A stretch of DNA of 64,000 bases, taken from contig SVTP01000004.1 in NCBI GenBank assembly GCA_015063725.1, forward strand, positions 1 to 64,000. Direction: 5' to 3'. Position 1 is the first letter of the stretch; each line of letters begins with the position of its first letter. The DNA is from Oscillospiraceae bacterium (GTDB lineage: Bacteria > Bacillota > Clostridia > Oscillospirales > CAG-272). The notes beneath the pieces were generated by a model. The model searched no databases. It was given only the letters and a program-made list of their open reading frames with translations, and was not told where the DNA came from. Position numbers and translations under genes: made by a program. Below, in pieces: positions 42,990-56,328 of the stretch.

Positions 42990-43152
42990 CTTGCGCCCCC
43001 TTTGTAGCTTCTTTCCTCTCAATTATATATGATTTTTTGCGTCCTGTCAACGAATAATCTGTTAAAATAAGAGTGATTTTGCATTTTTTGTCTCTCTTTT
43101 TTGCATCATGGGAGATTTTTGCCCCCCGGGGCACAAAATTTGGACGTGGGTG

Positions 43153-43181
43153 TTGACTTTTTGGACGTATTTTTGTATAAT
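43153..43181 (+). promoter_or_regulatory. Sigma-A promoter TTGACT-17-TATAAT
   Basis: Consensus hexamers and 17-bp spacer; flanking TTTGGACGT direct repeats at 43139 and 43160. Confidence 0.75.
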
Positions 43182-43230
43182 GATTTTAGAAAACCCAATT
43201 TCAAAACTCCGAAGCTATAAAGGAGAAAAC

Positions 43231-44535
43231 ATGATGAAACAGACACTCCGCCTCGGCTTTGCCGATGCCATTATTACCCCCAAGCACCCCGAGTACACCT
43301 ACCTTGACGGCTACGGCTTTCGCCTCTCTCCCGCAACCGAGGGTGTGCGCGACGATCTGCACGCAAAGGTTTGCGCGATGGTGGACGGGGAGAAGATTTT
43401 TTTGTTGTTCTCTCTCGACCTCATTGGACTGAGAGAGGACACCTACCGCTTGGTAAGCGCACAGATCACCGACCTGACAGGTGTTGCGCGCGAGGATATG
43501 GCACTCTCCTGCATTCACACCCATGCAGCACCTGCCTCGGGGATTCTTGACGAACTCCCCATTGACACCGACTATTTTGCTTACGTCGGCGAGGTTTGCG
43601 GACGTGCGGCACTTCGCGCTATTGAGCGCGCCTGCCCTGTGCACGCATCCTTTGCCATTCTGCCCGAAACCCTGATGACGACACACAACCGCCGCGAGGG
43701 ACGCGAGGTCATCGACCGCTCCATTCGCGCAGTTGTGTTCCGAAACGAGAAAGGCAAGCTTTGCGGCGTTCTTGCATCTGCCGCTTGCCACGCCGTTGTC
43801 AACACCGCGTATTCCATTTCTGCCGACTGGCTGGTAGAGTTCAATAAGCTCTCCACCGATGAGATCCCTTACCTCTTTTTGCAGGGACGTGCGGCGGATA
43901 TCAACCCGCAGCTGTATCTTGGGCTCCCCATCGACGAGCTGATCGAGCGCTTGGGGCGTGAATTAGCAACCCCCGTTGAAGCATTTACAAAAAACGCTCC
44001 GCAAGGAGCTCCCTTGGATGGAGACCTGACAAGGTACTATGAAGTTGTGCGCATCCCGATGAAGGAGATGACCGACCTTGATGCAGTACGCGAAGAGATC
44101 GCGCGCCAGTCCAAGTCTTACCGCGAGTGCTCCCCCGAGGATATTCAAAAGCACTTTGTGCTCCGTCAGCTGCAATGGTATCGCCACATGGAGAAAATGA
44201 TCGAGGACGGCGCGGATTTTGCCTTGCGCGTTCCCCTGCAGGTACTTGCCATTGGCAAAGCGTGCGTGTTCCTGTTTATCCCCTTTGAGCTCTTAACGCT
44301 CACAGGAAATAAGCTTGAAGAAATGTTTGTTGCCGCAGGTTTTGCGCGCGAAACGGTGTACGTGTGCGGATATTCCAACATGACCGAGGGCTACCTTGCC
44401 CCGGTTGAGGAATTCCCTTATGGCGGCTACGAGGTAGCAGGCGCGGCACATTGGTACAACATCCCCGAGGCATCCCCAAAGAGTGAGCCCGCCCTCTTGG
44501 ATTGGTTCTTCAAGGTTAGCGAGAAATTAAAATAA
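43231..44535 (+). CDS. Neutral/alkaline non-lysosomal ceramidase-like N-terminal domain protein
   Basis: LGFADAIITPKHPEYTYLDGYG, DLIGLREDTYR, LSCIHTHAAPASG. Confidence 0.78.
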   Translation: MMKQTLRLGFADAIITPKHPEYTYLDGYGFRLSPATEGVRDDLHAKVCAMVDGEKIFLLFSLDLIGLREDTYRLVSAQITDLTGVAREDMALSCIHTHAAPASGILDELPIDTDYFAYVGEVCGRAALRAIERACPVHASFAILPETLMTTHNRREGREVIDRSIRAVVFRNEKGKLCGVLASAACHAVVNTAYSISADWLVEFNKLSTDEIPYLFLQGRAADINPQLYLGLPIDELIERLGRELATPVEAFTKNAPQGAPLDGDLTRYYEVVRIPMKEMTDLDAVREEIARQSKSYRECSPEDIQKHFVLRQLQWYRHMEKMIEDGADFALRVPLQVLAIGKACVFLFIPFELLTLTGNKLEEMFVAAGFARETVYVCGYSNMTEGYLAPVEEFPYGGYEVAGAAHWYNIPEASPKSEPALLDWFFKVSEKLK

Positions 44536-44605: not shown

Positions 44606-44635
44606 CCGCGCCCATCGAAAACTCGATGGGCGCGG
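44606..44635. terminator. Terminator
   Basis: CCGCGCCCATCGA-aaac-TCGATGGGCGCGG. Confidence 0.65.
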
Positions 44636-44670: not shown

Positions 44671-46929
44671 TTAATAGTGATAGTACTCAAATACAACGGA
44701 GAGACCGCCCTGTGTCAAAACGATGGTGTCTGCTTGCATGAATGCAGCAGCGATTGCCTGATGGCTGGGATCGGTTCCAAACAGGTTGCCGGCAAAATCA
44801 AACAGATTTTCACCGTCGGAGTAGAGGGTGTATGCTGTGCCGTCTGCACCGTAAACGGTGAAGAAAGGAGGCGTCGCACCTGTCGTTTGTATTGCACCCT
44901 GCGAAATTTTAAGGATGGTCAACCAGTTGACGTTGTCCTCGGTCTGGAAGCGGTTGATACCTTCCCCATCAATCAGAATAGAGCCTTGTGCACCAATACC
45001 GGTAACAATTTCTGTCGCGTTGTCGCCATTTGCCATGATGGCACCCTTGATGTTCATCTGACCTTTTGCGTCAACAAAATTGCCAAGGCCGCCTGCCTGC
45101 AAACCGTAGCCGAGCGCTTTGATTTGACCAACGATCGTATTTGCACCAACAGCAGTGAACCAGATTTCCTGACCGCCAAGGTGTGTTTCCAGTACGCCAC
45201 CGGTTACGTTTACGATGGGATGATGGTTCTCCTCCCAAACGCTCTGTGCAATGATTGCGGGGCCGCCGCAACCGTTTACGTAAGAATCGATCAACTCAAA
45301 GGTGGAGTCGCCCCATACGAATGCCGCGTTTTGGTAAGAGTCGAAGCACTTGGAGTTTGTTACCTTCAAAGTGGTCGTATTTTCGGTAAAGTAGGTGATA
45401 AAGTAAGAGTTACCAATGATGTTGTTCATTGTGACCTGTGCACCCTCACAGGATTTGAAGAAGATCAAACCGCCTGCAGATGCCAGGCTCTCGGTGGAGT
45501 CAACAAGGTTGTCTCTTGCGGCGTTGCCGATGAGTGCCATGTTGTTCAGGGTAACGTTTACTACCTCTTCGGCAGCTTCCTCAGCAACGAGGAAACGGAA
45601 CAGTGCTGCGTTAGAGAAATCTTCCTCATAGTCCTTGCCTGCATCCTTACCGAATACACCGGGAGAAGGAATGATCGGGAAGCCCTTGGTATCAAGGGTA
45701 AACATATTACCTTCCATTACAAAGCTACCCGCACCGCGGTGCTCGTAAATGAACGTCCAGTCCACCAAATATTTGGTGCCTGCGGGAATAGTCTTGGCAG
45801 GAACCAGCTCACCATTTTCATCGAGCTTGTAGTAAACAACGTCTGCGGTGGTGGTGTGGAAGAAGCTTGCGGGAACATCTGCGGCACTCAGGTGGATATC
45901 GTTGTGCAGAACGATGCCGTTTGCCACAACGTTGGTAAGACCGTGGGTTGCCTTGTGGTCTGCCCATTCTTCGTTGTAGTTGTCAACAACAGCCAGCTGC
46001 CATGCCTCGTATACGTTGTAAGCATTGATGACCTTTGCCTCAAGAACGATGGGCGGAAAATCCTCTTCGTATACGATATACTGCTTGGTAGAAGGCGCTA
46101 CAGAGATCTTTACTTCCGCATTTGCAGCATCTGCGCTGAATTGATAAGTGCCCTTGTAGGTATTCACGGTAGCGATCAGCAGGTCGCCATCGTAATATTC
46201 AACCACGTTGCCCTCTTTCTTTTGTGCAGTAAGGGCTACGTATTCGCCGTTCTTTTTCAGGGAGATAACGACCTCTGCAAAGAACTCCTTTGCGGTTTCT
46301 TCTTCATCGGTCTCAATGTTCAGGATCTCAACGGTGGGGGTGAGTTTGAATTCGTTTTGGTTACCAATAACGTAGATCTGGTTGCCAACTGCAAACTGAC
46401 CGGAGAAACCTGCCTCACCGTAGTTCAGCTTGCCTGCATTTTTGTTGGCAGCATTAAATGCTACCAGCGTAGAGGGAGTATCAAAACCGATAATCTCAAG
46501 CGTGGGCTCCTCGGGTGTGGAGGGCTGGTTGGGATCGTCGGGAGTCGTTTGGTCGGGGGTGGACTTTACAACCTTGATTTTGATCTTGGCTTCTTGCTTT
46601 ACGCCAAGGTTAGGGTCCATAAAGGAAACGGTAATTTCCTTTTCGCCAACGGTATCGGTAATGCCGTCGGTGTTTGAGATAGTCAATTCTGCAAAGGTAT
46701 AGGTTTTATTCAGGTTTTCGTCATTATACTTTGCGGTTGCCTTGATGCCGGAAAAATCAACTTTTTCGCCAATCACATACTCTGTTTTGATGGACGTAGG
46801 ATCAATAATAAAGGATTCGAGCTTGAGAGAGCCGTCATTTCCACCGGAAGGTCCGCAAGCAACAAACGAAAGCATCGTTGCCATGGTCAATACTACTGCT
46901 AAAAGTCTGGTTAAATTCTGAATTGTCAT
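44671..46929 (-). CDS. Lipoprotein with Ig-like (Big_3-type) N-terminal domain and probable beta-helix C-terminal region
   Basis: LSFVACGPSGG lipobox; YVIGEKVDFSGIKATAKYNDENLNKTYTFAELTISNTDG; many NVTLNNMALIGN/TLKVTNSKCF type strands. Confidence 0.75.
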   Translation of the reverse strand: MTIQNLTRLLAVVLTMATMLSFVACGPSGGNDGSLKLESFIIDPTSIKTEYVIGEKVDFSGIKATAKYNDENLNKTYTFAELTISNTDGITDTVGEKEITVSFMDPNLGVKQEAKIKIKVVKSTPDQTTPDDPNQPSTPEEPTLEIIGFDTPSTLVAFNAANKNAGKLNYGEAGFSGQFAVGNQIYVIGNQNEFKLTPTVEILNIETDEEETAKEFFAEVVISLKKNGEYVALTAQKKEGNVVEYYDGDLLIATVNTYKGTYQFSADAANAEVKISVAPSTKQYIVYEEDFPPIVLEAKVINAYNVYEAWQLAVVDNYNEEWADHKATHGLTNVVANGIVLHNDIHLSAADVPASFFHTTTADVVYYKLDENGELVPAKTIPAGTKYLVDWTFIYEHRGAGSFVMEGNMFTLDTKGFPIIPSPGVFGKDAGKDYEEDFSNAALFRFLVAEEAAEEVVNVTLNNMALIGNAARDNLVDSTESLASAGGLIFFKSCEGAQVTMNNIIGNSYFITYFTENTTTLKVTNSKCFDSYQNAAFVWGDSTFELIDSYVNGCGGPAIIAQSVWEENHHPIVNVTGGVLETHLGGQEIWFTAVGANTIVGQIKALGYGLQAGGLGNFVDAKGQMNIKGAIMANGDNATEIVTGIGAQGSILIDGEGINRFQTEDNVNWLTILKISQGAIQTTGATPPFFTVYGADGTAYTLYSDGENLFDFAGNLFGTDPSHQAIAAAFMQADTIVLTQGGLSVVFEYYHY

Positions 46930-47094
46930 TTTTTCATTCCTCCTTAAGAAAGGGTGTTGGAGTTATGCTTAACTCCGTGGATTTGTTACGTTTTTTTACG
47001 TTGGGACACATGAAAAACCTGTTGCTATCACCTCAATTTCTTTCAACTGTTTTTATTTTTACGATAGGATCTTGACATTTCCTCTTGGAATGAT

Positions 47095-47577
47095 TTAGTT
47101 CGCTTGGGGGGATCTGCTTTTGATCACGATCGTTGTTTTTACGTTAGAGCCGTCGGTGGAAACAATGGTTACCGTAAGGCTTCTGTTGTTTCTTAAAAAG
47201 ATAAAGGTTTTTGTTTCCTCATCAAAATGGACATAAGGCTTTTCTTCAAATATAAACTCCACCTTGGAGCCGTCTGCCGTGTGCGGCAGAACCTCATAGT
47301 CGATGCGAACGGCATTGGGGTTGTTTGCAAGACTTTCGGGATCTTTACTGTATTCCCCCGGTGTGAACACAAAGTGGTACACCGGAATCCCCTCTTCGTT
47401 GATCTCGTGAACACCGTAGGTTTTTGGAGTTTCATTCATTACGGTGATGCTGTTGCATTTGATCTCTTCAACGTACTCAACACCGTCAAACTCCTTGATG
47501 GCAAGGCCGAAGAAGTTGACTACCGCAATGGACGCGATATAAACCACAAGGATGACGATAACGATTGTTTTTTTCAT
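47095..47577 (-). CDS. Small N-terminally anchored hypothetical protein
   Basis: MKKTIVIVILVVYIASIAVVNFFGL; 4-nt overlap with upstream permease gene. Confidence 0.7.
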   Translation of the reverse strand: MKKTIVIVILVVYIASIAVVNFFGLAIKEFDGVEYVEEIKCNSITVMNETPKTYGVHEINEEGIPVYHFVFTPGEYSKDPESLANNPNAVRIDYEVLPHTADGSKVEFIFEEKPYVHFDEETKTFIFLRNNRSLTVTIVSTDGSNVKTTIVIKSRSPQAN

Positions 47578-49301
47578 GATTGCTTCTCCTTGTAAAACGC
47601 TTTGATTTTGGATAGGTAGGTGAACACCTTAAGGATGGCAAACACTACGGCTACAATGGCAAGCTTGAGCCACACACCCGCATCGTTGCGGGAAGACAGG
47701 AAGAACGTGATTGCAAACACAATTGCCGACAGGAGAATGGCACCAATGCCCGCTCCCGTTTCGTTGGGGTTGTTTGTTTGCTCGTTAAAGGTTGCGTATT
47801 GCTCGTATTGTGGGTTCATGATGTCACTTTCCGCACCCGAGAACAGGTGCGCAACATACACGCCATAGATCATAATACCGATCAGGACGGCATCAGTTTT
47901 GCCAAACCCTGCCTCTATGGCAAATACGTTAACGGTAAAGATCAATCCCACAAGCGCTATGATCATTGGGAAGATCAGCTTGGAGATCAACAAGGTCGCA
48001 TAAGGTGTAGGTTGTATCTTGTTGAGATAGGAACTGGAGCCGTCACGGCTATAGACCGATGCGATATCAATGTTTGTCATCAGCATGATCAGCAAAATGA
48101 TGATGATGTTAAAGCAAACAGTCATTTGCGTGCCGATAAAACGGGTGTCCATTGCAGAATAGATCTTGTTGAGCAGATAGATCGCCATCGGCATGATTAC
48201 GATCAGTACCCCACCCAATTTGATAAACGCGTTGGAGCGAAGCCCAATCACAAATTCTTTTTTGACTGCCGAGAAGAACGGGAGCGTTTTGCGGTTTTTG
48301 CGCGGCTTGATCCTATCCTTCTTTTTGAACTCAAACGGCGTGGATGCCATTCGGTAGAAGAGCGGCTTGGAACACAGGAAGCAAAGTAGCAGCAACCCGC
48401 AGCCAAGCCCCGACAAAAGGAGCAATGACGGAAGCGTACCCGCGTGGAATATCACATTCGACAGTCCTACGGTTCTACCAACGATCAGCTCGGTAAAGGA
48501 ATAAATGGGGGCAAATGCCGCGACGTAGTCATTGAGAAAGGCTTGCACCTCCCAATACGTGTTGCCCCAGCTTTCAATAAAGTTGATATCCTCGGGAATC
48601 AAACCAATGAGCCACCACATCAAAAGGATGGCACCGCCGCCAAGTGCGATATACAAAAGATACTGTAAGATCTTGACGCGGTTGAGGAAAAGATAGACGA
48701 ACATTGCGGGGATCGACAAGAGTGCCGCAAGCAAAACGGGAATGCTTGAGATCAGCACAAACATCAAAATCAGCCAAGGGTAAAAAAGCAAGCCCTTGGG
48801 ATCTCCCGAGCCATACCCTCTTACCACCAGACCGTATGCAATAAACATGGGAATGGTAAACATAAAGCTCTTGCGAAGCTCGTACACGTAGTAGGTGGCA
48901 AGCTTGGAGAAGAACACAAGCGAGGGGGTTGTGGGGAACGTGAGAAGAACGGTGTTGTCCTTGGAAAAATAAAGAGATTTCATCAGCCCGATCGTATCGG
49001 TGATCAGCGAGAGTGCAAGCATAATACCAAACACCAACGAGATGACCGAAACGGGAACATCATGCGTGAGCGAGAACAAGCCGAGCAGCTTTACAAAATG
49101 GAAGATCACTGCAATGATCGCCGTGATCGCCGCAAACTCAATCAATAGCCACGTGATCTTGAAGATCAGCTTTTTGCGGGAACGCAGATAGCCGAGATCC
49201 ATTTTTTCCTTGAGCTGCATTTTGACCAGTGTTACGAGCGCTCGCCACTTTTCAAGGAAGGATGTCATAAATCCATCCTTTTTCAGCTTTGCTTTCGTCA
49301 T
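47574..49301 (-). CDS. ABC-2-like exporter permease
   Basis: 575 aa, multiple TM; 4-nt overlap with upstream ATPase fusion gene. Confidence 0.78.
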   Translation of the reverse strand: MTKAKLKKDGFMTSFLEKWRALVTLVKMQLKEKMDLGYLRSRKKLIFKITWLLIEFAAITAIIAVIFHFVKLLGLFSLTHDVPVSVISLVFGIMLALSLITDTIGLMKSLYFSKDNTVLLTFPTTPSLVFFSKLATYYVYELRKSFMFTIPMFIAYGLVVRGYGSGDPKGLLFYPWLILMFVLISSIPVLLAALLSIPAMFVYLFLNRVKILQYLLYIALGGGAILLMWWLIGLIPEDINFIESWGNTYWEVQAFLNDYVAAFAPIYSFTELIVGRTVGLSNVIFHAGTLPSLLLLSGLGCGLLLLCFLCSKPLFYRMASTPFEFKKKDRIKPRKNRKTLPFFSAVKKEFVIGLRSNAFIKLGGVLIVIMPMAIYLLNKIYSAMDTRFIGTQMTVCFNIIIILLIMLMTNIDIASVYSRDGSSSYLNKIQPTPYATLLISKLIFPMIIALVGLIFTVNVFAIEAGFGKTDAVLIGIMIYGVYVAHLFSGAESDIMNPQYEQYATFNEQTNNPNETGAGIGAILLSAIVFAITFFLSSRNDAGVWLKLAIVAVVFAILKVFTYLSKIKAFYKEKQS

Positions 49302-51556
49302 ACCGTCTCTCCTTGGGGCAAGGCGTGCCCTGCTGCCTCCTTAACAGATACGGGAGACTGCGTGTTGCCATCGATCATGCCCATATAGAATTGCTCAAGC
49401 GGAATACCGCTCTCTTTGATCTCGGCAACGGTTTTGGTGCAAAGGATCTGCCCCTTGCGAATGATTGCGATGCGGTCGCAAATGTTTTCTACAACGTCGA
49501 TGATGTGGCTGGAGAAGAATACGATGTTGCCGCGCGATGCGTGCTCCTTCATACACTCCTTCACCTGAAAGATGGATTCGGGGTCAAGACCTGTCAGCGG
49601 CTCATCCAAGATCCAGATCTTGGGGTTGTGGACCAGTGCCGACATGATGGTGATCTTTTGCTTCATACCGTGAGAGTAGGTCTTCATCGGGTTGTCGATC
49701 GCCGTTTCCAGACGGAATCTCTTGACGTATTCGCCAATGCGCCCGTCGCGATCCTCGCGGGAAACGTTGTAAAGGTCGGCGATATAGTTGATATATTCTC
49801 TACCCGTCAGATTTTCGTAAAGTGCGTAGTGGTCGGGTACAAAGCCGATCTGCATTTTTGCTTCTACCGATTGCTTTTCTGCGTCGTAACCGGAGATCTC
49901 GATCTCTCCCGAGGTGATGGTCTGAATACCGACGATGGATTTGATAATGGTGGATTTACCTGCGCCGTTGGGGCCGAGGAAGCCAAAGATCTGTCCACCC
50001 TCAATTTCAAGGTTTGCCTTGTAAACTGCGTAAACGTCGCTGGTGGAGTATCGTTTTGAAAAATCGCGAAGGATCAGCTTGCCTTCGTTTTGGGGATTCA
50101 TAGGTTCCTGCATACTGCGTCCTGCAAGATGCACCTCAAGTGCCAGCCTATCTGCTTTGATCTTGCGGTTCCTTTCCATAATAATTTCGTAAGTGTCAAT
50201 GATCTCAAATGCCTGCTCGTAAATAAACCACATAGCAAAGGAAAGCACAATATAGACCACAAAGTAGAGTGATTGATACACAGGGTATATCAAAAGATTC
50301 AGGTCACCGAGCTTGAACGCAAAGGTGATCTTTCTGAGATCCTCTGCCCAGTCGCCAAGCTTTTCGGCAATGAAGTCGGAATTGATAAAGAAGAAGTCGA
50401 CCGAGTGCCCCTCTGCGGTGAGCCACGCATTCATAAAAAGGACAAATGCATAGTAACCGAAGAAAGCAATGAGCGAGTAGACAAACTGCTTCATTTTGGG
50501 GCGTGCGAAAATCTTAAGAGTCATCAAAAGCAAGGGCAACAGCATTGCCATGTAGTGGTTCGTCCAAAACTGCATAGAGGACGAGGAGAGCCAGTTTGCT
50601 TTGTCGGTGTTCGGCATGATCATTGCAAAGAATGCGCCGAGCACGTTGATGAAAATGGTAAAGTAATAAAGCTTTTCCATCTTGAAAATAAGCACCAAAG
50701 GGATGATGAACATCGCCGTGTTGCAAAGGTGCAAGGGCCATTGATGCAGATTGACAAAAACGGAAAAATCGTAATTGTAGCAAAAGGAGATCATGGTTGC
50801 CATGCTGATGTAAAGCAAGGCAAATCTCTTTTGCTCGTATTCACATCTTGCAAACAAGAAATGAACAACCAGTGCAAACACGACCGCACCGTAAAGGAAC
50901 AGTCTGTGCGTCAGGGTAAAGTTTTCAATCAGGATGGCATCGCTGCCCAGTCCAAAGAGAGCCTGCGGCACCCAGTGCGGCATTGAAATAGCCACCATGC
51001 CAACAAAAATTGCCACGGTCAGTAAAATCTTTTTGAGATTGAAAACAGGGCGTTTTTGCTTGGTGATCTGAAAGAGTGCCAGAGCAAGTCCTACTCCAAG
51101 CTCAAGAGCAAAGATGAGCAGGCGGTAATGGAAGCCGTTGGCAAGCTCTCCGTCCTGCGCGCGGTTGAGCATAGGGAGCGCAACGATCGAAAGTGCGTAA
51201 ACGCCAAAGGCTACGTAGCGAACAATGGGAGCAACGAGCGGAATGTGCTTTTCAAAAAACGGATAGGTGATTGCGGCGAGCTGAACGGCGTAGATGAGCC
51301 AGAACAAAAGTGCCGACAAAATAACCATTGTGCCACCCTGCGGACCGAACGGCGAATAAACGTTGAGACCAATGGTCTCCTGAATGAGCGGTGTACCGCC
51401 AAAAAAGCGAACAAAAAAGAGCGTCGAATAGACCAGCGCCACCAACCGTGCGTTGCTCATGCGCTCTCCAAAGATGTCTTTATTTCGTAAGAGAAACAAA
51501 AATGCAAAAGTCAATAAACAGGATGCCAATGCAGCACCGTAGTACAAATAAATCAA
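49298..51556 (-). CDS. Fusion: YwaF/TIGR02206-like multi-TM domain plus ABC ATPase
   Basis: N-term about 12 TM including LHQWPLHLCNTAMFIIPLVLIF; C-term FGFLGPNGAGKSTIIKSIVGI, YSHGMKQKITIMSAL, IWILDEPLTGLDP. Confidence 0.88.
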   Translation of the reverse strand: MIYLYYGAALASCLLTFAFLFLLRNKDIFGERMSNARLVALVYSTLFFVRFFGGTPLIQETIGLNVYSPFGPQGGTMVILSALLFWLIYAVQLAAITYPFFEKHIPLVAPIVRYVAFGVYALSIVALPMLNRAQDGELANGFHYRLLIFALELGVGLALALFQITKQKRPVFNLKKILLTVAIFVGMVAISMPHWVPQALFGLGSDAILIENFTLTHRLFLYGAVVFALVVHFLFARCEYEQKRFALLYISMATMISFCYNYDFSVFVNLHQWPLHLCNTAMFIIPLVLIFKMEKLYYFTIFINVLGAFFAMIMPNTDKANWLSSSSMQFWTNHYMAMLLPLLLMTLKIFARPKMKQFVYSLIAFFGYYAFVLFMNAWLTAEGHSVDFFFINSDFIAEKLGDWAEDLRKITFAFKLGDLNLLIYPVYQSLYFVVYIVLSFAMWFIYEQAFEIIDTYEIIMERNRKIKADRLALEVHLAGRSMQEPMNPQNEGKLILRDFSKRYSTSDVYAVYKANLEIEGGQIFGFLGPNGAGKSTIIKSIVGIQTITSGEIEISGYDAEKQSVEAKMQIGFVPDHYALYENLTGREYINYIADLYNVSREDRDGRIGEYVKRFRLETAIDNPMKTYSHGMKQKITIMSALVHNPKIWILDEPLTGLDPESIFQVKECMKEHASRGNIVFFSSHIIDVVENICDRIAIIRKGQILCTKTVAEIKESGIPLEQFYMGMIDGNTQSPVSVKEAAGHALPQGETV

Positions 51557-51757: not shown

Positions 51758-51834
51758 TGGTCGGAGTGACAGGATTCGAACCTGCGGCCTCTTGGTCCCG
51801 AACCAAGCGCACTACCAAACTGTGCCACACCCCG
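51758..51834 (-). tRNA. tRNA-Pro (anticodon CGG), CCA encoded
   Basis: CGGGGTGTGGCACAGTTTGGTAGTGCGCTTGGTTCGGGACCAAGAGGCCGCAGGTTCGAATCCTGTCACTCCGACCA folds as cloverleaf. Confidence 0.95.
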
Positions 51835-52157
51835 AGAATTTTTTTGAATTCTCTGATACTATACGACCGGCAAGGAAACCGGATCGCCAAATGCCGCCTT
51901 GCGACATGAGGCTAGCACCCAAATATGGTACTATACCCCGATTGGATTTTATTGTTTTTTTATTTTTTGTGACTGTGTGCGATGGTGAAAATATCAAATT
52001 GTCAATGTGAAGATTATCTGTTGGTTTGGTGAACCGCCGTCACATCACCACGCCGACATTATAACACAACATCGCATCTTTGTCAACCTTTTTTTCAAAA
52101 ATACTTTCTTGTGTGCGGCAGTAATATGTGCTAAAATAAGAAAATCAACACAAAAAC

Positions 52158-52209: not shown

Positions 52210-54531
52210 TTATTTTTCAATAATAAAAGTGGCGTAAGCAAAGGTTTCACCTTTTGCAAATTCGTAGCCTTCAAATACAATGCAGTCCTCGTAAACGTGA
52301 ACGATGTAGCCCTCGGAACGCCCCTCTCCACTGCCGACCAGAACGCGAGGTGTTGAGCAAGCCGGAATGTGTACCATCGTTGCAAAAGTGCCATCTTTGT
52401 TATCAATGTTCTTATCGTAATTGGTCTTGCCCGGCTTGGGAGTAACAAATTGCGAATCAAATGCCCAATGAGAGTGTCCGCTGAAATACACTACGTTGGT
52501 GTATTTTTGGAAATACTCGTTAAACTTTTTATATTCCACGGTGGAGCTGATCATAGGCAAGCCGTATTCGCTACCGCTTGCATTGGTGGCATCCCCCACT
52601 TCCTCATCCATAAAGGTGTGGAAGAAGAGGAACACGGTTGTGTCCTTATATTGCTCCAATCTTGCTTCCAGCCAATTGAGCTGATAGTCATCCAACAAAC
52701 GCGAGGTGGAACTTCCGTAATCGTAATATTTTTGGTGCAAAAAGATCATCACACTGCCATCGGGGAGTTCGACCGCATAATCCAGCTCGTTGTCATCAAA
52801 GAACAGATAATCAAGCTCGCTATCGTACTCCACTACATCTCTTGCGTATCGCATATACCAATCGTAAGAGAATCCCGTGTATTTTGCCTCGTGATTGCCC
52901 GTTGTTGTAAAAATGGGCATATCGGGGGCGGTTTTGTAGATCTCTTTGATAGCGTTTGCATGCAAAATATATTCACTCTCTATGTTGTCATACGAGAAGT
53001 CGCCGCAAATGCCAATGGCGATTGCGCCTTTTTCATAGAGCACTTTGGATGCATTGACAAAGTGGTTATATGGGATAGAGGTCGAGCCGTAGCGCGTACC
53101 TTGATGGGTATCAGACAGAGCACCGAAGACGTACAGTTCTTCTTCGGCAAACAAATGGGACTCAGGGATCGCGTAGGAATAGGTGATTTGTTTATCGCCG
53201 CTGACGGCAATCAAGCGAGTCGCTCCACGAGGGATGGCGGTAAAGGATTGAACGGTAACCTCTGCCTCCTCGTTTTCCATAAACTCGTCAGAATAGAGCA
53301 TTGTGTAATCTTTCAGCTTTCCGTTCGCATCTGCCCAATAGAAGGTGTAGACATCCGATGTTTCGGGCAAAAAGGTGAACGTTCCGCCTGCAAAGCCGGG
53401 AGCATCATATAGAAAGTCATACGAGAGGATACCTGCGGGAACGTAAACCTTGCCACAACCTATGCAGACATCATTGGTATAGATGTGGTCGTGGGTTGCG
53501 GGAATGAATACACGTTTGCACTCCCCGCAAGGGCAAGCAAGGAGCTTTTCTCCGTCCTCGCCGCAAGTCGCTTCTTTGAGAACAGTCTCGTTTAGGTAGG
53601 AATGTGCGTGATATTCGCCAACCTTGACAAAATAAAGGTCGCGATAGTGTTGAGACTTGGGACAGGATGCTGCGTGCTCGATTTTGATGATGTTCTCACC
53701 CGCAACAAGATTGACCATAACACCGTACATATAAATGCCGTGTGTGCTGTTACGCATATTGCTATAATCCATATTGGCGTAGCCGTATGAGGTCTCGATC
53801 ACCTGCTCATTTTCGGTGCCGCCGTTAACGGTATATTTTGTGCCGCGCACTTGCGCATCCTTAAGGCGAAAATGAAGGATCATTTCATAAACACCGCCCT
53901 CGGGAACGGTTACCTTGTAGACCAAGCAGTTTGCTGAGTTTTCAAGCACATACCAATGCTCGATCCCCTCGGTAGTGGATTTGCTCGGCGAGACGGAAAG
54001 GGATTTATCATAGTCACCCGCCCAAACGTGGACACCGTTTTGATAGCCGTCAAGCAGTTCGGGAGAAAAATGGTAGGTGTCGGTTTTACCGTCGCCGTCG
54101 GCATCGTAAACAGAGGAAATTTCGTATATGGGAATGGGGGTAAAAGCACAGGTTGCACATATACCGCTGGTGTAAATGTGAACACCCGTAGCAGGAATGT
54201 CACTTTCTTTGCTCTCCCCGCAGCTACAATAGGCTACCTGCGTGCCATTTTGCACACACGTGGGCTCTTTGGTAACGGTTACACGGTCAAATAAATGCTC
54301 GTGCGGCGGTTCGGGGGGCGTAGTGACCTCGGGAGTAGTGTTCTCGGGAGTGGTGTTCTCGGGAGTGGTGTTCTCGGGAGTGGTATTCTCGGGGGGAGTG
54401 GTTTGGGGTGTTGTGATATCCGATATTGGCTCTTGCAGGGTTGTTTGCTCGGGCGTATGAGGCTCCAAAAACGGCAAACAGCTTGTGAGCAAAAACATCA
54501 ATACAACGGATAACAAGAGAATCCGTTTCAT
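52210..54531 (-). CDS. Calcineurin-like metallophosphoesterase lipoprotein with TPENT repeats and Cys-rich modules
   Basis: LTSCLPF lipobox; ALSDTHQG, GDFSYDN, TTGNHEAKYTG, FSGHSHW; CSCGESK and CPCGECK modules. Confidence 0.88.
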   Translation of the reverse strand: MKRILLLSVVLMFLLTSCLPFLEPHTPEQTTLQEPISDITTPQTTPPENTTPENTTPENTTPENTTPEVTTPPEPPHEHLFDRVTVTKEPTCVQNGTQVAYCSCGESKESDIPATGVHIYTSGICATCAFTPIPIYEISSVYDADGDGKTDTYHFSPELLDGYQNGVHVWAGDYDKSLSVSPSKSTTEGIEHWYVLENSANCLVYKVTVPEGGVYEMILHFRLKDAQVRGTKYTVNGGTENEQVIETSYGYANMDYSNMRNSTHGIYMYGVMVNLVAGENIIKIEHAASCPKSQHYRDLYFVKVGEYHAHSYLNETVLKEATCGEDGEKLLACPCGECKRVFIPATHDHIYTNDVCIGCGKVYVPAGILSYDFLYDAPGFAGGTFTFLPETSDVYTFYWADANGKLKDYTMLYSDEFMENEEAEVTVQSFTAIPRGATRLIAVSGDKQITYSYAIPESHLFAEEELYVFGALSDTHQGTRYGSTSIPYNHFVNASKVLYEKGAIAIGICGDFSYDNIESEYILHANAIKEIYKTAPDMPIFTTTGNHEAKYTGFSYDWYMRYARDVVEYDSELDYLFFDDNELDYAVELPDGSVMIFLHQKYYDYGSSTSRLLDDYQLNWLEARLEQYKDTTVFLFFHTFMDEEVGDATNASGSEYGLPMISSTVEYKKFNEYFQKYTNVVYFSGHSHWAFDSQFVTPKPGKTNYDKNIDNKDGTFATMVHIPACSTPRVLVGSGEGRSEGYIVHVYEDCIVFEGYEFAKGETFAYATFIIEK
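54330..54395. repeat. 15-bp tandem repeat encoding TPENT
   Basis: GGGAGTGGTGTTCTC units x4-5. Confidence 0.85.
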
Positions 54532-54567: not shown

Positions 54568-56328
54568 TTACGAAACAGGAACCAGCGCGGGATGCTGTAA
54601 GGGGTTGTTCCCTGCTACCTCAACGCCAAACAAAGCAGCAATGGTTTTGGGGATCTGGGTGTTTTCAATCGTTCTGCCGTCAAAGACCTCGGCATCGGCA
54701 CCGTAGGCAAACACGGGAACATTTGCAGCAGTGTGATTGCCCGTTGTGTAATAGAAGTCGCCGTTGTCGGCAATTTGCAGACCGCCTGTTTCGTGGTCGG
54801 CAGTAATGATGACCGTGGTATCGGGATTGTAGAATGCGTACTCCATAAACAGGGCGATTGCCTGATTGAAGCGCAGCATTGTCAGGTAAGCATTTTGGGC
54901 ATCGTTGCTATGGCAATGCTTGTCGATATACGCTTCCTCATACATCATGAAGAAGCCGTCCTCATCTTCTGAGAGAGACGTCAGTGTTCTTGCAATGGCA
55001 GCGCGCAGATTTTCGATTTGGGCATCGGTATCATAATTGTAGTTGCAATCGATAACAGTACCGTAGGCATCGGTCAGTTTTGCCTGCGAGGCAAGAATAT
55101 CCGCACTGTCGTTGCGATTGTTGGCGTGTGCCGAGAAGGATGCGGGAGTGGCACCCGTTTGCGCCTCGGTGGACATAACGGCGGTCGCCTTGCCCTTGCC
55201 TGCTGCAAGCTCTGTCAGCGAGGGAACGTCATTTTTGTCGCCGTCCTTGCCAATGTATCCGTTAACGGTTTTATAGCCGGAGGAGAGCGCAGTTCCTGCC
55301 GCGGCACTGTCGGTGGTGCCCGAAAGAGAATTGGTTTTTGCTTCTCCAATGTAGGGGAACAGGTAGCCGTAGAAGAAATCCTCACCGTCGCTGTAATCGG
55401 CAATGCTTGCATTTTTGTAGGCGTCAAAAAGCTTGGTCTGGTTGAGACCCATACCGTCACCGATGAGCAAAATAAAGTTCTTTGCCTTTTGCACAATGGG
55501 GGTGCAGATGCTGACGGTTTGGGGAATATGAACATCAAAAGCCGCGCCGGGGATGTAGGTCTCTACAAAGTAATACGCCGCAGCGGCAATGATGAAGTAG
55601 TCGCCCTCAAGCGCTATATGGTCCTCGGTGGCAAGGAATGCAAATTCCATGCCCTCGGTGGCAGCATCCAGACTTTGCGAAATGGGACGAGTTGTTTCGC
55701 CTACAACGATCTCGTGGGCGTTCTCTTTGTCGGATGCGTCAATAGGCATAACGGAAAGAACGATGCCTGTGCGCACCTCGATCTCGGCGGCGATATACTC
55801 TGCCGCGCGAACGGTGTAATCGGATGCGTGCTCGTCATAAACGATGACGTAAGAGAAAAGTGCATCACCGCACAAAAACGGAACGGATGCATCCTTTTCG
55901 CCACACCATTTGCAAATAGCATCCACATAACTGTGCTCACCCGTGGCGGGAACGCTCTCCTTTCGAATAGCACCGCAAGCGGTGCAGGTGGCAGTCATTT
56001 CACCGTCACCCATGCAGGTGGGCTCTTTGGTAATAACGGCTTCACCGTAGCTGTGCTCACCGGTATCCTCCAGAGATATTCTTTGCCACTCACCACACGC
56101 GCACATGCCTTGCCAGCTTCCGGGATTGATGCAGGTAGCATCCGTAATAACAATGTTTTGATCGTAAACGTGCTTGTGCGCCGTTTCTTCCGGTGTTGTC
56201 ACCTCGGGCGTGGTTTCTGCAGGTGTCGTCACTTCGGGCGTGGTGGTATTCGGCGTTTTCTCTTTTGCAAGGTTACAACTACACAAAAGAAGTGTGAGAA
56301 AAACGAGTAAGAAGCATAATTTTTTCAT
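54568..56328 (-). CDS. Alkaline phosphatase family lipoprotein with Cys-rich modules
   Basis: LLCSCNLA lipobox; FILLIGDGMGLNQT, GTTDSAAAGTALSSGYKT, ITADHETGGL, GNHTAANVPVFAYG. Confidence 0.92.
   Translation of the reverse strand: MKKLCFLLVFLTLLLCSCNLAKEKTPNTTTPEVTTPAETTPEVTTPEETAHKHVYDQNIVITDATCINPGSWQGMCACGEWQRISLEDTGEHSYGEAVITKEPTCMGDGEMTATCTACGAIRKESVPATGEHSYVDAICKWCGEKDASVPFLCGDALFSYVIVYDEHASDYTVRAAEYIAAEIEVRTGIVLSVMPIDASDKENAHEIVVGETTRPISQSLDAATEGMEFAFLATEDHIALEGDYFIIAAAAYYFVETYIPGAAFDVHIPQTVSICTPIVQKAKNFILLIGDGMGLNQTKLFDAYKNASIADYSDGEDFFYGYLFPYIGEAKTNSLSGTTDSAAAGTALSSGYKTVNGYIGKDGDKNDVPSLTELAAGKGKATAVMSTEAQTGATPASFSAHANNRNDSADILASQAKLTDAYGTVIDCNYNYDTDAQIENLRAAIARTLTSLSEDEDGFFMMYEEAYIDKHCHSNDAQNAYLTMLRFNQAIALFMEYAFYNPDTTVIITADHETGGLQIADNGDFYYTTGNHTAANVPVFAYGADAEVFDGRTIENTQIPKTIAALFGVEVAGNNPLQHPALVPVS

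Follow-up and report, generated by a model that had tools for sequence, protein, structure and literature searches.

What can a membrane protein related to acyltransferases do for a cell when an ATP-binding cassette (ABC) ATPase is built into the same polypeptide? The question is raised by four adjacent genes of an Oscillospiraceae bacterium (CAG-272; assembly GCA_015063725.1), of which we analyzed positions 1-64,000 of contig SVTP01000004.1; this stretch of 64,000 nucleotides (nt) is called the window, and all coordinates refer to it. The first gene encodes a fusion protein (FUS), and it is followed by genes for a permease (PERM), a small anchored protein (SM) and a lipoprotein (LIPO) (Table 1). 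They are open reading frames of 752, 575, 160 and 752 amino acids (aa), with overlaps of 4 nt between FUS and PERM (49298-49301) and between PERM and SM (47574-47577) and with 165 nt between SM and LIPO. The layout given in the initial annotation was recovered in full, as was the presence, in one reading frame, of a multi-spanning membrane region followed by an ABC ATPase with all its motifs. Judged from sequence, there is about an even chance that the four proteins make up a cell-surface machine for acyl transfer, driven by ATP and working at the outer leaflet of the membrane. It is also possible, and we hold this tentatively and a little short of an even call, that they represent a class of ABC machine not described before, which would have ATP hydrolysis hard-wired to an outer-leaflet cysteine transacylase whose one extracytoplasmic target is recognized by a beta-helix lipoprotein. 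Each part is of a known kind, and no description of this gene combination was found in the limited literature searched.

The membrane region of FUS provides the first part of the evidence. Residues 213-420 pass the gathering cut-off of the TMEM164 family PF14808 (E 7.3e-17, 62 vs 25 bits), a YwaF-like motif, WPLHLCNTAMFIIPL, lies at residues 273-287, and once the ATPase was removed the only NCBIfam match of FUS was TIGR02206, the family of YwaF, which NCBIfam describes as a TMEM164-related integral membrane acyltransferase. The opinion that YwaF function is essentially unknown therefore has to be revised: besides the name given to TIGR02206, human TMEM164 is a cysteine-dependent transacylase with a phospholipid donor (PMC13276253), and LhaT (YpjA, DUF1405) of B. 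subtilis, reported to belong to the same wider superfamily, N-acetylates lipoproteins at the outer face of the membrane, with PcrB making the lipid carrier that it uses (PMC12345273). Members of the TMEM164/YwaF family occur widely in bacteria, with no tested bacterial function found, and literature searches for YwaF or TIGR02206 by name returned only unrelated papers. FUS shares with this family the same membrane domain by profile and the same invariant histidine, cysteine and histidine found in stand-alone relatives, but unlike the family it also possesses an additional six-helix N-terminal module, a C-terminal ABC ATPase and an operon with a permease and a lipoprotein.

These three residues, H217, C278 and H334 in FUS, are the invariant polar residues, among the positions compared, in all 15 stand-alone YwaF-like proteins; neighboring residues vary. 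H217 and H334 lay outside every pattern used in our scan for relatives. An AlphaFold2 model of residues 1-485 (pLDDT 91.8, pTM 0.89), together with the positive-inside charge of the loops, predicts 13 transmembrane helices with the N-terminus outside and the ATPase inside, and the three residues are predicted to lie where their helices end at the outer face. No PDB homologues of the membrane module were found by profile or fold search. A possible internal duplication, in which the N-terminal half of the membrane region would match the C-terminal half, obtained no support on comparison.

In the acyl-transfer reading, C278 would accept an acyl chain donated by a membrane phospholipid and form an acyl-enzyme intermediate at the outer leaflet, from which the chain would be passed to an extracytoplasmic acceptor extruded or presented by the ABC-permease pair. 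The acceptor could be a lyso-lipid, a glycolipid, or the N-terminus of LIPO itself or its cargo, and the outer portion of the complex would consist of SM and LIPO, either binding the acceptor or being it. LhaT offers a parallel in that an extracytoplasmic acceptor is acylated, but it belongs to another branch, has no ATPase and uses Ac-HepG made by PcrB (PMC12345273). PcrB was detected in none of the 11 operon genomes searched, with a positive B. subtilis control; Ac-HepG is therefore unlikely as the donor, and a phospholipid donor is favored. The fusion to an ABC motor and the obligate lipoprotein partner narrow the function of the TMEM164/YwaF family and predict an outer-leaflet acyl transfer that needs both C278 and ATP; if true, this would point to a new route by which gut Clostridia tailor their surface lipids or lipoproteins.

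Several points weigh against this reading. The TIGR02206 match of FUS (E 5e-15) reaches 55.5 bits, below the curated cut-off of 75, so that FUS is a relative of the YwaF/TIGR02206 subfamily and not a full member. None of the bacterial PF14808 proteins found here has a known activity. The scan patterns included WPLHLCNTA, which makes the conservation of C278 partly a product of selection, and the three putative catalytic residues were placed by the predicted ends of their helices. Finally, one fused homologue (L026, 9420-11702; G086) has lost H276 and H334 and kept the operon, which means that catalysis may not be needed everywhere. Its motif reads PLGIC and WASS and it forms a long branch in the tree; from its sequence, it is possibly a non-catalytic copy.

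The ATPase of FUS carries Walker A (GPNGAGKST), signature (SHGMKQK), Walker B (IWILDEP) and H-loop motifs and matches ABC_tran with E 4e-27. It is most similar to models of DrrA, GldA and bacteriocin-immunity type, missing widely the curated cut-offs of every ABC model listed, and it differs from DrrA/GldA-type exporters in being fused behind 13 predicted transmembrane helices. This similarity, as well as a patchy distribution of the kind usual for accessory traits, would suit a role in self-protection or antibiotic response, in which the system would sense or clear a membrane-active peptide or lipid and mend lyso-lipids through re-acylation. We consider such a role very unlikely, as the flanking genes inspected in the window include no two-component regulator or biosynthetic genes and as such systems do not usually have a big dedicated beta-helix lipoprotein. 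Movement of lysophospholipids coupled to re-acylation is known from LplT-Aas repair, where Aas uses cytosolic acyl-ACP and LplT is not an ABC protein; its likeness to the proposed machine lies in the coupling of movement and re-acylation.

PERM passes the gathering cut-off of PF16949 (29.9 vs 25.7 bits), a family matched also by 10 of 13 relatives, and is the natural transmembrane partner of the FUS ATPase. A coupling-type motif seems to occur in it twice, a weak signal which suggests that one PERM may pair with two FUS subunits. SM and LIPO are predicted to be extracytoplasmic. SM probably exposes an Ig-like (immunoglobulin-like) domain outside the cell, and its 311-aa counterpart in an operon with separate membrane protein and ATPase genes contains Big_2 domains (E 3.5e-30). 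LIPO had been taken for an Ig-like/beta-helix lipoprotein. A pattern search found the lipobox signal in 67 of 68 relatives; the Ig-like part is sub-threshold in the window protein itself (Big_3, 18.9 vs 21.2) and is matched by 23 of 40 relatives, with a best value of 2.5e-18, while the beta-helix is supported by the strand pattern of the AlphaFold2 model (pLDDT 89.5) and, weakly, by PDB matches to the folds of AlgE mannuronan epimerase and pectin lyase.

Two other explanations bear on LIPO. In NosDFY systems the beta-helix protein NosD docks on NosFY, and it is conceivable that the FUS ATPase and PERM likewise move a docked LIPO in order to load or mature a surface component, the TMEM164-like domain being then lipid-sensing or structural. 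The systems are alike in having an ABC ATPase, a permease and an exported partner, in LIPO with a predicted beta-helix; LIPO is a Sec-type lipoprotein inseparable from its transporter, NosF is among the PDB matches of the FUS ATPase, and the fused member without two motif histidines would also be accommodated. However, NosDFY has no acyltransferase domain and LIPO, a lipoprotein, has Ig-like domains, 81-82 of 82 fusions and all stand-alone relatives retain the catalytic-type triad, the 50 best fold matches of LIPO, themselves weak, do not include NosD, and the annotated flanks in the window contain no nitrous oxide reductase-like metalloenzyme or copper enzyme, nor was a further conserved gene seen in relatives, which together make this mechanotransmission or assembly role rather unlikely. 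The resemblance to AlgE and pectin lyase, weak as it is, and the predicted outside position of the active site would agree with a system that exports a surface glycan or glycolipid and O-acylates it, where the ABC-permease pair flips a lipid-linked saccharide, which the acyltransferase then modifies outside the cell and LIPO binds. We find this clearly unlikely, given that LIPO matched no catalytic carbohydrate-active family and that no further conserved gene, such as a glycosyltransferase or polymerase, was found in the set (the outside neighbors in relatives were not annotated).

Are the four genes then one system? The scan, which took one genome per species, gave 147 relatives, of which 80 were analyzed; nearly all are labeled Clostridia or other Bacillota, and they are mostly metagenome-assembled genomes (MAGs) from the gut. 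The initial annotation had named co-occurrence of the genes in relatives as a point on which its proposal could fall, and nearly all of about 80 related loci have the fused ATPase and the order FUS-PERM-SM-LIPO. All four genes were called in 67 of 83 loci by a simple open reading frame caller, one further locus (L077) being added by hand; many of the loci without four called genes are explained by contig edges or caller errors. In the genome of L090 LIPO is unlinked and lies well inside another contig, and LIPO is likewise present in the genomes of L119, L126 and L076. The exception is L068, an incomplete contig, for which no LIPO was found in the genome. G318 was considered as a second unlinked case and dropped; its fusion gene runs to the contig end. 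Among 148 genomes of the family FUS is present in five and the LIPO core in exactly the same five (p ~2e-9, relatedness ignored), and in a further genome set the core is present in 7/7 genomes with FUS and 0/4 without; none of the genomes searched had a LIPO core without the fusion. Distances between loci for the five parts of the system also correlate with one another (PERM-LIPO r 0.87, uncorrected for the species tree). The conserved gene order and the co-occurrence of the LIPO core with the fusion support the view that the four genes are one dedicated system. This part of the original inference was thus supported; the other part, in which LIPO could be the exported substrate, fared worse. 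The tight operon and the exclusive co-occurrence would fit a dedicated exporter with LIPO as cargo, but LIPO has its own lipobox signal, for which Sec, Lgt and Lsp should be enough, and this makes export by the ABC pair highly improbable; a role as partner or acceptor fits better.

The association of the genes is separable from the fusion itself. Unfused relatives of the entire FUS membrane region, about 470 aa long, were found, and the split five-gene operon of L028 has the same order: membrane protein, ATPase, permease, 311-aa anchored protein and lipoprotein, the last with a core that still matches the LIPO core probe. The gene association is therefore independent of the fusion. Stand-alone membrane relatives of about 450-490 aa occur also at L027, L029, L030, L154 and L155, with no matching ATPase gene directly adjoining. 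In a midpoint-rooted tree the 82 fused proteins form one clade (100/100) apart from six unfused ones, and the simplest reading of these sequences is one fusion event within an already associated gene set. The distribution is patchy at the level of genus, family and class, which suggests that the operon was gained and lost over time. Two records, L111 and L112, are titled Corallococcus and Prevotella; their fusions fall within Clostridia clades and they are probably mislabeled MAGs.

FUS starts with TTG behind the Shine-Dalgarno sequence AGGAGG. From the 4-nt overlaps we infer that FUS, PERM and SM are translationally coupled, and the FUS-PERM overlap of this length recurs in 29 relatives. With a promoter consensus upstream and a hairpin after LIPO, tRNA-Pro and the four genes are plausibly one transcript.

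Table 1. Features of the four-gene locus and its surroundings in the window.
Feature	Position	Strand	Remarks
Sigma-70 consensus promoter TTGACA-17-TATAAT, extended -10 (predicted)	52058..52086	-	12/12 consensus matches; upstream of tRNA-Pro and operon
tRNA-Pro (cgg)	51758..51834	-	between promoter and FUS
FUS, 752 aa, TMEM164/YwaF-like membrane acyltransferase module and ABC ATPase	49298..51556	-	about 80 orthologues
FUS N-terminal module, residues 1-212	50921..51556	-	about six transmembrane helices, no known family; also in unfused ~470-aa relatives
FUS TMEM164 domain (PF14808), residues 213-420	50297..50920	-	profile match
H217, putative catalytic residue	50906..50908	-	82/82 fusions; 15/15 stand-alone YwaF-like proteins
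C278 in WPLHLCN, putative acyl-accepting nucleophile	50723..50725	-	82/82 fusions; 15/15 stand-alone YwaF-like proteins
H334, putative catalytic histidine	50555..50557	-	81/82 fusions; 15/15 stand-alone YwaF-like proteins
FUS ABC ATPase domain, residues 493-715	49412..50080	-	ABC_tran; complete motifs
PERM, permease, 575 aa, PF16949 ABC_tran_2	47574..49301	-	kept downstream of FUS in relatives
SM, small anchored protein, 160 aa	47095..47577	-	one N-terminal transmembrane helix and probable outside Ig-like domain
LIPO, lipoprotein, 752 aa: lipobox, Big_3 Ig-like domain, central domain, beta-helix	44671..46929	-	
LIPO core with beta-helix, residues 291-635	45025..46059	-	co-occurrence probe
Strong bidirectional terminator-like hairpin 3' of LIPO	44606..44635	-	13 pairs, 10 G-C

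The leader of about 220 nt between the promoter consensus and tRNA-Pro (51835-52057, minus strand) has no Rfam match at the gathering threshold. A plasmid-borne origin of the locus was considered and rejected, with no plasmid match. The convergent neighbor (43108-44535, plus strand) gives a weak match to neutral ceramidase (PF04734, 29.5 bits, below the cut-off of 32.1). Upstream, two genes on the minus strand (52210-54531 and 54568-56328) encode proteins that combine lipoprotein-like N-termini and TTPE-rich stalks with metallophosphoesterase and alkaline phosphatase domains.

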